Made by a program: the position numbers and the translations under genes
NCBI GenBank assembly: GCA_947455255.1
Contig: CANGOA010000013.1
Location: 1-35,037 of the forward strand
Length of the DNA stretch: 35,037 bases
Direction: 5' to 3'
Origin: Flavobacteriia bacterium
GTDB taxonomy: Bacteria > Bacteroidota > Bacteroidia > Flavobacteriales_D > Crocinitomicaceae
Notes under the pieces: model-generated
The model's input: the letters and a program-made list of their open reading frames with translations, nothing else
What the model was told of the DNA's origin: nothing
Database searches by the model: none
Shown here: positions 27,129 to 35,037 of the stretch, one piece after another
How positions within the stretch are numbered: the stretch's first letter is position 1
Layout of the letters: each line of letters starts with the position of its first letter

Positions 27129-27578
27129 ATGAAATTATTATCGAAAATTACTACAAGAACGTTGGATATTTTCCCTGTTTCTGTAGATACAGTGCTGGAG
27201 ATTCCCGTGGTTTCAACAGCTATTTCTGCAGGATTTCCTTCTCCTGCGTTGGATTTTATTGATTTATCCATTGATATGAATAAACATTTGATTAAGAGAC
27301 CTTCTTCAACTTTTTATGGTCGTGTTAAAGGTCAGTCTATGAAGGATGTTGGTATTACGGATGGAGACTTATTAGTCATCGACAAAAGTATCACACCTAA
27401 AAATGATCAAATTGCAGTTTGTTATGTTGATGGTGAATTCACGATTAAAAAGATTAAGTTCGAACAAGATGTTTGTTGGTTAATTCCGGCGAACGATGCC
27501 TATCAACCGATTCGTGTGACGAGTCAAAATGATTTTTTAATCTGGGGAATTGTTACGCATGTAATTAAAGCATTTTAA
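27129..27578 (+). CDS. umuD: UmuD-like self-cleaving protease subunit of translesion polymerase
   Basis: S24/LexA-type protein that is cut in a RecA-dependent way to activate UmuC polymerase. 149 aa, no DNA-binding N-terminus. The cleavage dipeptide A34-G35 lies in [10 protein letters not shown], the nucleophile Ser70 in [10 protein letters not shown], and the general-base Lys107 in [10 protein letters not shown]. The stop codon overlaps the umuC start by one base (TAATG), giving translational coupling. A promoter with a palindrome is seen upstream; SOS control is likely from the family but no known LexA box is recognised. Confidence 0.93.
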
Positions 27579-28837
27579 TGTTTGCTCTGATTGATTGTAA
27601 CAATTTTTATGCTTCGTGTGAGCGTGTCTTCCGACCCGAACTCGTTGGAAAACCTATTGTTGTTCTGTCGAATAACGACGGAGCAGTTATCGCGCGAAGT
27701 AATGAAGCGAAAACCTTAGGGGTTCCTATGGGGGCGATTGCTTTCGAATACGAATCTTTTTTTCTGAAAAATCACATTCATGTTTTTTCAGCCAATTTTG
27801 CCTTGTATGGAGATATGAGTGCTCGTGTGATGAACTTGTTACAAGAATACAGTCCCGAAATAGAAGTATATAGTATCGATGAGGCTTTCCTCAAGCTTAA
27901 AGGGTTTGATTATGTAGATTTAGATGCGTATGGTAAGGATATGCAACGACGCGTTACGAAATGGACGGGCATTCCGATTAGTGTAGGGATTGCGCCGACA
28001 AAAGCGCTTTCAAAAGTAGCGAATCGAATCGCTAAAAAATATCCAGATAGGACGGGTAGTTCGTATGTGATAGATTCGGAAGAAAAACGATTGAAAGCCT
28101 TGAAGTGGTTACACGTAGAAGATGTGTGGGGGATAGGTAGGCAGCATGCTGCTCGACTTAAATCTTATGGTATACGGACAGCTTATGATTTTACTCAGTT
28201 GAATGATGCTTGGGTACGTCGTAACATGAGTGTCGTAGAATTACGTTTAAAACATGACTTATCAGGTATTCCAACCTTGGATTTAGAAAAAGTGAAACCT
28301 CGAAAAAATATCGCGACAACACGCTCGTTTGAACGAAACCTAGTGCATTTTAGTGATATTCAAGAACGAATTACCACGTTTGCAGTTGCGTGTGCAGAGA
28401 AACTACGTAGACAAAATGATTGTTGCACAGCGTTATTAGTGTTTTTGAGAACAAATGCTCATCGACAAGAATTAGAACAGTACAATAATAGCACGGTTGT
28501 AAAACTTCCTTTTGCGACGAACTCGAGTATTGAATTGGTGAAGTTTGCGACAGAGGGACTTCAACGCATTTTTCGACAAGGATATCAGTATAAAAAAGCA
28601 GGTGTAGTTATCATGGATTTTAAGCCTGAAAATGAGATTCAGCTGAATTTGTTTGAAAATAGCAATCCTAAACATGTTGAATTAATGAAAACAATGGATG
28701 TGATTAATCATTGTTATGGTCAACAAAAAATTAGATTAGCTAGTCAGGATCAAAAAAGGGTGTGGAAAATGAAGCAAGAACGACTTTCTCCAAGGTACAC
28801 GACGCGTTTACAGGATATTATTGTAGTAAAGGCGTGA
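27578..28837 (+). CDS. umuC: Y-family DNA polymerase UmuC
   Basis: Translesion synthesis polymerase (Pol V type). The 419-aa protein begins [22 protein letters not shown] with the first catalytic Asp, has [17 protein letters not shown], and the second catalytic pair in [31 protein letters not shown] and [12 protein letters not shown] (helix-hairpin-helix) follow. The C-terminal UmuC extension with the clamp-binding region is present, for example QLNLFENSN. Coupled to umuD. Converges with lnt, 38 nt away, with only a weak hairpin between them. Confidence 0.95.
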
Positions 28838-32744: not shown

Positions 32745-33344
32745 TTACAAATCTAATTTTGTTTGTAAAGATGCTTTGACATTGAATGTCTTACGATGAA
32801 ATGGGGTTGAGCCATTGTTTTCTATAGCTTTTCTGTGATCATTTGTAGGGTAACCTTTGTTTTTTTTCCAATGATATTCTGGGTATTTTAAATCTAATTC
32901 TTCCATAAAGTCATCACGATATGTTTTTGCTAAAATTGAAGCAGCAGCAATAGATAGGTATTTCGCATCGCCTTTAATAATACATACGTTTGGTATTGTG
33001 TGCTTTTTAAATCTATTTCCATCAATTAGTAATAACTCGGGAATTATCTTTAGTTGATCAACAGCTTGATGCATTGCCAGGAAACTCGCATTTAATATAT
33101 TTATCTCATCAATTTTTTGATGATCTACATAAGAAACAGCATATGCTATTGCTTCTTTTTCAATGATTACACGTAATTCCTTGCGTTTTTTTTCTGAAAG
33201 TTGTTTTGAATCATTTAACCATTCATGCGTGAAATCGAATGGTAATATAACAGCTGCAGCAACAACTGGACCGGCAAGACATCCTCGTCCGGCTTCATCA
33301 CAACCAGCTTCAATGGTGTTTTCTTGATAGTAGGGTAGGAGCAT
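32745..33344 (-). CDS. rnhB: Ribonuclease HII
   Basis: Cuts the RNA strand of RNA-DNA hybrids, including single ribonucleotides in DNA. The 199-aa protein starts near [22 protein letters not shown] (residues 11-32), holding the first Asp and Glu of the active site; [10 protein letters not shown] and the [16 protein letters not shown] segment supply the other acidic residues. N-terminal ATG is at 33344, a few bases after a hairpin that ends the tRNA-Val remnant. Original neighbour of the tRNA locus. Confidence 0.95.
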
Positions 33345-33356
33345 AGGTATTAAATC

Positions 33357-33385
33357 AAAAAAGCCTTAGATTTCTCTAAGGCTTT
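33357..33385 (-). terminator. Terminator downstream of the tRNA-Val remnant
   Basis: Minus strand stem AAAGCCTTAGA (33385-33375) / TCTAAGGCTTT (33370-33360), GAAA tetraloop, then a T run (33360-33357). It directly follows the tRNA 3' end and looks like the original tRNA terminator. Confidence 0.88.
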
Positions 33386-33393
33386 CGTTTCTG

Positions 33394-33440
33394 TGGGAGA
33401 TGAGGGGCTCGAACCCCCGACCCCCTGCTTGTAAGGCAGG
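33394..33440 (-). tRNA. Truncated tRNA-Val (anticodon UAC), 3' half only; likely integration-site remnant
   Basis: On the minus strand this is positions 27 to 73 of a tRNA: anticodon stem CCTGC/GCAGG with loop CTTACAA (anticodon TAC, Val), a 5-nt variable loop GGGTC, T arm GGGGG TTCGAGC CCCTC, 3' acceptor strand ATCTCCC and discriminator A; CCA is not encoded. The 5' acceptor strand GGGAGAT and a D arm are missing: the adjoining sequence has GGGAATA and only about 14 nt before the anticodon stem. So the gene is not functional, and its 3' end plus terminator remained as the junction of an inserted element. Confidence 0.82.
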
Positions 33441-33496
33441 GAATCTTATCCTTGTATTCCCAATAAATAAAAGCCTTTCTCTTATTTATATGTACA

Positions 33497-33517
33497 AATT
33501 TACATAGAATTTACATA
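33497..33517. repeat. Tandem 10-bp direct repeats near the island junction
   Basis: AATTTACATA occurs at 33497-33506 and 33508-33517, separated by one base (11-bp period, about one helical turn), 57 bp from the tRNA fragment. This resembles arm-type binding sites of a tyrosine integrase, or could be a chance AT-rich repeat. The stretch 33441-33615 holds no gene. Confidence 0.7.
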
Positions 33518-33615
33518 TGGTAAGCGTGGTTAATAATACGTGTTCGTTTTTTACTTGATTCAAATCCAGAATAAGTGAGTGTTTTATTATGGTTTTTCCT
33601 GTGGAAGGAGTGATA

Positions 33616-33837
33616 TTACTTTTTGTTCTCTTTTTTTTGTTTTGAGTCTAATAAATAGAAAACAAACCAAATTACACCGATTACAAGCACACCTTTGATT
33701 ACTAAAGATACGAGGTCTCCGATTGCATCAATACTATTTGTTATACCTCCAAAAAAACCATCTCCTTTAAATAGCCCAGTTACTCCCCATATTAAAAGTA
33801 GACCTACTACAATTGCTATTATTTCAGATTTTTTCAT
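33616..33837 (-). CDS. Small two-TM membrane protein of unknown function
   Basis: 73-aa protein, not recognised. Two hydrophobic helices (about residues 5-22, IIAIVVGLLLIWGVTGL, and 43-62, LVSLVIKGVLVIGVIWFVFY) joined by a Gly-rich loop with GDGFFGG; Lys-rich C-terminal tail (KQKKENKK). It starts 14 nt after the J-domain gene and is likely cotranscribed, so it may be its membrane partner. Part of the putative island. Confidence 0.65.
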   Translation of the reverse strand: MKKSEIIAIVVGLLLIWGVTGLFKGDGFFGGITNSIDAIGDLVSLVIKGVLVIGVIWFVFYLLDSKQKKENKK

Positions 33838-33851
33838 GATTTTAAATATTA

Positions 33852-34997
33852 CTATGAGAATTTGTACCCTATAAGGAGTTCAAGAGCCTTGAAGAAAAAT
33901 TGTCTATTTGACAATCGCATCAATTCAACACCATTTTTATTACCACTTTCAAAAAACAAGAACTTTTTCTCGTAGTTAGAATGTTCGATAAATAAATTGG
34001 TTCCTTTAGTATATAATCGTTTTATCTCATTGAAATTATAGGTAACATCTCCTTTTTTATCTAAGAAAGTAATGAATCCAACTCCCAACTTAATATAAGG
34101 TTTGTATTTTTCATCATCAATTATTCTAAATTCAATATAGCCTTTTTCTTCAAGTTCTTTTTCCATATTATCTAAAAGATATATGGTCCAATATTTTTCT
34201 GCCCACCTATTAGTCCAATATTCGATTGCTACATCTCTATTTGGGTTGTCATTTTTGTCGTAATATGTTCCACTAAAGTCTTTTATTATTCTGCCATTGT
34301 AACTCCATTCAAAACCGTATTGAGTGTCTTGGTAATTAAAATTAAAATTACGTCTCCTTGACACACTTAATAGGTCGGTAATTTGATTGAAATTGATTTC
34401 TACGTCCTCAGTTAAAATATCTCTGTTGCCTGAGATTTTAAAAAATGCAAATCCGTTAACACCTATAAAAGAAGCATTATGTTTGAAGCTTTTAAATAGA
34501 GAACCGAAAAATCCTTTTGGAGGATTCATGGATTTTTTTAGTGTTGTATATCCTGAGATTAATTTTCCAATTTTCAGAGGAAGAGTAAAGAAATCTGTAT
34601 CGTCGGTCAATTCTTCTCCCCAATGGTTGATTTTTGGTGCAAACTGTGGCGTTTCGTTTGTTTTTCTATCTTGTTCTGAGTAAAAAGGTTTAAAAGGATC
34701 GTAGAAATATTGTTCTTCTTGTTCCTTTTCTTTAGTTTTTTGTTCCTTTATAGTGGTTTTTTGCTGGTCTGATTCATTCTTAAAATAGGCATTATACATT
34801 AAGTCGTATTCCGATTTTTTATTTGAATCAGAGAGTATATCATAAGCTTCTTTGATACTCAGAAATTTTTCAACAAAATAATTATCTCCAAAATGTTTAT
34901 CTGGATGGTATTTGATTGCTTTTTGTCTATATGCCTTTTTTATTTCTTCAATTGTAGCAGAAAAAGAAATTTCTAATATCTCATAATAATTTTTCAT
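33852..34997 (-). CDS. J-domain protein with repeated PH-like C-terminal domains
   Basis: A 381-aa protein. Residues 1-65 are a complete J domain (YYEILEISFSATIEEIKKAY; H31-P32-D33; IKEAYDILSDSNKKSEYD), which stimulates a DnaK-type chaperone. A Lys/Glu/Gln-rich linker (about 75-100) follows. No Gly/Phe region, zinc finger or DnaJ C-terminal domain is present, so it is not DnaJ or CbpA. The rest looks like two similar beta-rich modules: GVNGFAFFKI with EINFNQITDLL (about 180-215) and GVGFITFLDK with YNFNEIKRLY (about 305-330), reminiscent of bacterial PH domains; this is pattern reading only. Upstream 34998-35037 shows no recognisable promoter. Confidence 0.75.
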   Translation of the reverse strand: MKNYYEILEISFSATIEEIKKAYRQKAIKYHPDKHFGDNYFVEKFLSIKEAYDILSDSNKKSEYDLMYNAYFKNESDQQKTTIKEQKTKEKEQEEQYFYDPFKPFYSEQDRKTNETPQFAPKINHWGEELTDDTDFFTLPLKIGKLISGYTTLKKSMNPPKGFFGSLFKSFKHNASFIGVNGFAFFKISGNRDILTEDVEINFNQITDLLSVSRRRNFNFNYQDTQYGFEWSYNGRIIKDFSGTYYDKNDNPNRDVAIEYWTNRWAEKYWTIYLLDNMEKELEEKGYIEFRIIDDEKYKPYIKLGVGFITFLDKKGDVTYNFNEIKRLYTKGTNLFIEHSNYEKKFLFFESGNKNGVELMRLSNRQFFFKALELLIGYKFS

Positions 34998-35037
34998 TTT
35001 ATTAACCTCAGTTCGATTAAAAAAGTGCTATCTGATC

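Follow-up and report, generated by a model that had tools for sequence, protein, structure and literature searches.

A displaced tRNA-Val(UAC) 3' half almost certainly marks the far end of a small integrated genomic island in a Flavobacteriia draft genome

The window (i.e., the whole 35,037-nt stretch of DNA analysed here) is an entire contig, C13, ending at 35037, of a draft genome that comprises 212 contigs, is 76.85% complete and has an estimated contamination of 2.3%. Towards its right end, the following features lie side by side:

32745-33344, minus strand: rnhB (ribonuclease HII), native chromosome flank; an open reading frame with 87-91% identity to its counterparts in six congeners, all of which have tRNA-Val immediately before it
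33351-33440, minus strand: direct repeat of 90 bp forming the attachment site and made up of tRNA 3' half, spacer and terminator; C55:5334-5423 matches it at 89/90 positions
33357-33385, minus strand: native intrinsic terminator of tRNA-Val, conserved in six congeners, where it separates the tRNA from rnhB
33394-33440, minus strand: displaced tRNA-Val(UAC) 3' half, the distal attachment-site remnant and native chromosomal copy; intact tRNA at C55:5377-5451
33441-35002, no strand: what C13 contains of the integrated element's distal end, up to the point where the insertion-sequence end begins; no folC or tRNA sequence, presumably continuous with C55:147-5333
33496-33518, plus strand: putative arm-type site for the integrase, AAATTTACATAGAATTTACATAT, with a second copy next to the other end at C55:5183-5206
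33616-33837, minus strand: element gene for a 73-aa hydrophobic small protein; open reading frame without a Pfam match
33852-34997, minus strand: element gene for a 381-aa protein with an N-terminal DnaJ domain (Pfam PF00226, E 4e-21)
35003-35037, minus strand: one end of a multi-copy insertion sequence, with its terminal inverted repeat, at which the assembly breaks; the 17-bp end is found 13 times in the genome

Further to the left, at 27129-28837, neighbouring genes resemble umuD and umuC (error-prone polymerase V), judging from their translations only.

Read from the sequence, positions 33440-33394 of the minus strand form the 3' half of a tRNA-Val(UAC), with an anticodon arm bearing UAC, a variable loop, a T arm, a 3' acceptor strand and a discriminator A (CCTGC CTTACAA GCAGG ... 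GGGGG TTCGAGC CCCTC ATCTCCC A), followed on the 3' side by the terminator AGCCTTAGAGAAATCTAAGGCTTTTTT (minus strand, ~33385-33357). ARAGORN called no tRNA anywhere in the window and Rfam none at its gathering score; with relaxed thresholds, RF00005 aligned to 33461-33394 at 26.2 bits versus a cut-off of 29, the 5' acceptor/D-arm portion being the misfit. The sequence on the fragment's 5' side, CTTTTATTTATTGGGAATACAAGGATAAGATT, is missing both from the intact copy of the gene (described below) and from all six close relatives, and apart from a GGGA able to pair with the acceptor UCCC it has no features of a tRNA 5' half. That pairing, together with the full-length alignment to the covariance model, would favour a functional tRNA whose D arm is reduced or absent, with the upstream GGGAAUA serving as its 5' acceptor strand; but acceptor positions 5-7 would then be unpaired, no D arm forms, the score stays below the cut-off, and the supposed 5' part is element DNA that occurs in no relative, all of which makes a functional tRNA exceedingly improbable. 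The original prediction of a tRNA 3' half followed by its own terminator is thus borne out, and the 5' acceptor strand and D arm have, as it also claimed, been replaced by foreign DNA.

Since the contig supplies no sequence beyond the window, the search for the element's second end was extended to the rest of the genome. A genome-wide search with the 43-nt 3' segment, permitting up to three mismatches, returned two places, both perfect: the window itself and contig C55, where the second copy is contained in an intact tRNA-Val(UAC) (C55:5377-5451, 71.2 bits). Chance can be excluded as the source of the fragment because its 3'-most 43 nt recur only once, and within an intact tRNA-Val. When C13 and C55 were aligned, there was a single strong match, between window 33351-33440 and C55:5334-5423 (89 of 90 positions identical), and the duplicated segment, as a refinement of the original prediction, takes in the tRNA terminator as well.

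On C55, folC adjoins the intact tRNA-Val on its outer side, and a tyrosine integrase gene lies on the inner side, past the terminator. In all six of the closest congeners, folC, an intact tRNA-Val(UAC), the terminator and rnhB follow one another without interruption, representing the empty site, whereas here folC and rnhB sit on separate contigs, with the repeat closing off the native stretch of each. It follows that the rnhB side is native and that the element extends rightward from 33441, where, in contrast to the congeners, no folC or tRNA sequence is present up to 35002. The proposed linkage of the C13 and C55 ends rests on this synteny among relatives. A decayed tRNA-Val pseudogene, produced without a mobile element by duplicating part of the gene or by a local deletion, would likewise consist of a 3' half with an unrecognisable 5' half, but it sits badly with a second copy that is 89/90 identical and has an integrase beside it, with the split of folC and rnhB over two contigs that both carry the repeat, and with the empty site in six relatives; we give it hardly any credence. 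Similarly, an assembly or binning chimera, with a foreign contig end fused to rnhB, might be entertained for a draft genome with an estimated contamination of 2.3%, yet the fragment and its terminator are native and continuous with rnhB, the complementary junction is present on C55, and a sister element in another genus (genome G070) has both of its ends on one 61-kb contig (C19), leaving a chimera only the slightest chance.

Almost certainly, the fragment is what was once the 3' end of the chromosomal tRNA-Val(UAC) gene, displaced to the far end of a small genomic island that had integrated there. This reading draws on observed features: the two junctions and the 90-bp repeat, the presence of an integrase gene, an empty site in relatives and a complete sister element. 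From the window alone, it had been proposed that the fragment is the integration remnant of a tyrosine-recombinase element, that the rnhB side is native with the element running rightward to an intact tRNA-Val, and that a second copy, an integrase and, in relatives, an intact tRNA-Val upstream of rnhB should be found. All of this proved correct, the intact tRNA-Val and its adjoining integrase being located on C55 and not by walking downstream, as the contig stops at 35037.

As to mechanism, the element's tyrosine integrase would carry out recombination between the tRNA gene and the element's attachment site, itself a duplicate of the tRNA 3' half and its terminator. Fusion of the native 5' half to the 3' half brought by the element would restore a working tRNA and terminator beside folC, and the native 3' half and terminator would end up at the element's opposite end, next to rnhB. 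We infer both the recombination event itself and the non-expression of the fragment. The sole mismatch within the 90-bp repeat falls at window position 33391, where the base on the rnhB side is that found in five of six element-free congeners and the C55 base differs; the crossover therefore lies inside 33392-33440, i.e., in the tRNA part. On the terminator side, the window copy is thus native and the C55 copy element-derived, which suggests that the element carried in a tRNA 3' half plus a nearly identical terminator. Because the repeat runs past the tRNA and over the terminator, both here and in G070, the tRNA and its terminator would be restored together.

The integrase (399 aa, C55:3959-5155) contains the Pfam domains Phage_int_SAM_5 and Arm-DNA-bind_5, and K269, R345, H368 and Y378 are invariant across nine relatives; at E 0.001 there was no hit to the Pfam model for the catalytic domain itself, nor did NCBIfam or, by sequence, solved structures provide a match. 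Eight genomes from this bacterial family contain relatives with 44-53% identity, and at seven of the eight loci there is a tRNA gene nearby: tRNA-Val(UAC) for the two nearest relatives (53% and 50%) and tRNA-Asn or tRNA-Arg for the rest. A scan of genome_contigs and viral_contigs with short exact patterns, which has only close relatives in reach, returned none. Inside both ends of the element there is an arm-like repeat, AAATTTACATAG(A)AATTTACATAT, with an alignment score of 20; among 2000 dinucleotide shuffles of the two flanks, the highest score was 18. Comparable pairs of short repeats precede the integrase gene in several relatives (by eye), and, judging by analogy to known tyrosine integrases, the repeats are plausible, if putative, arm-type binding sites.

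The known parts of the element, window 33441-35002 and C55:147-5333, together amount to ~6.7 kb, such that the element measures at least 6.7 kb here; the size of the sister element supports its being small. Its C55 portion encodes the integrase, a 192-aa protein, a RadC-like protein, an XRE regulator and several small proteins. Among nine element proteins, Pfam identified no conjugation, relaxase, or capsid or other structural phage genes, the scan covering the sequence on either side of the contig gap, and PADLOC found no match for the cargo. Across 119 related genomes, matches to the 381-aa DnaJ-domain protein barely exceed the J domain, and its long C-terminal part is without a clear relative there. 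By eye only, a J-domain-like HPD stretch is discernible in a second element protein (C55:1089-1511).

Both C13 and C55 stop in insertion-sequence ends and are not joined by the assembly. The 17-bp inverted terminal repeat, TAACCTCAGTTCGATTA, occurs 13 times in the genome, mostly less than 150 bp from a contig end, and the same insertion-sequence ends are found at 35003-35037, at C55:1-146 and at eleven other contig ends; this multi-copy insertion sequence accounts for many of the contig breaks in the draft. The start of its coding part presumably resembles IS982-type transposases. The C13 and C55 ends are of opposite type and both flanked by TTAT, a pairing that is consistent with, but does not prove, one insertion-sequence copy spanning the gap, the end on contig C81 fitting C55 equally well. 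The gap between C13 and C55 is probably a single insertion sequence.

With direct-repeat ends, a tyrosine recombinase near the intact tRNA and an empty site in relatives, the locus is an ordinary, well-proven example of a common event and a known kind of element. The Islander database catalogues tRNA-integrated genomic islands with tyrosine integrases (PMC4383910), and the present element resembles such islands in that the tRNA target is split, the gene is restored by the island, the displaced fragment lies at the other end and the integrase adjoins the restored tRNA. Unlike them, it is small, its cargo is unnamed and its repeat also spans the tRNA terminator and spacer; a narrow literature search on elements that also carry the tRNA terminator yielded nothing to the point. 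A half tRNA gene read by eye can thus locate an island boundary overlooked by standard tRNA finders, and the partner of that boundary is recoverable even from a fragmented draft genome.

The complete sister element in G070 measures ~5.7 kb between its ends, which are copies of a 107-bp repeat (106/107 identical), and reads in the order folC, intact tRNA-Val, integrase, small proteins, XRE-like and RadC-like open reading frames, and truncated tRNA-Val with terminator. In a further genome, G060, a truncated tRNA-Val lies beside a RadC-like gene (C33) and the intact tRNA and integrase are on C94; there, the terminators of the truncated and intact copies differ. The terminator is thus inside the repeat in two of three cases, and its inclusion is therefore not required. 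The sister elements share with the present one the tRNA-Val(UAC) target, the integrase (50-53% identical) and the RadC-like gene (38%), the integrase and RadC-like protein being the only proteins in common by BLASTP; an XRE-type regulator is present in both the genome analysed here (G000; Pfam) and G070 (by eye). They differ in carrying other cargo, with no DnaJ-domain gene of this kind, and in a repeat that begins in the D arm and not, as here, at the anticodon stem. Tentatively, and with the odds somewhat against it, these elements may belong to an unnamed family of ~6-7 kb tRNA-Val islands in several genera of one family, characterized by a tRNA 3' half plus terminator, an integrase, a RadC-like protein, an XRE regulator and no transfer genes. 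If such a family exists, its movement must depend on help from another element. The present element and its sisters make up a clean small family with a shared target, allowing members to be compared as to how far the attachment repeat reaches (tRNA only versus tRNA plus terminator). The truncated tRNA-Val of G060 (L124, 3270-3354 on C33) lies beside eda/edd-like genes, a similar island end in a different chromosomal neighbourhood.
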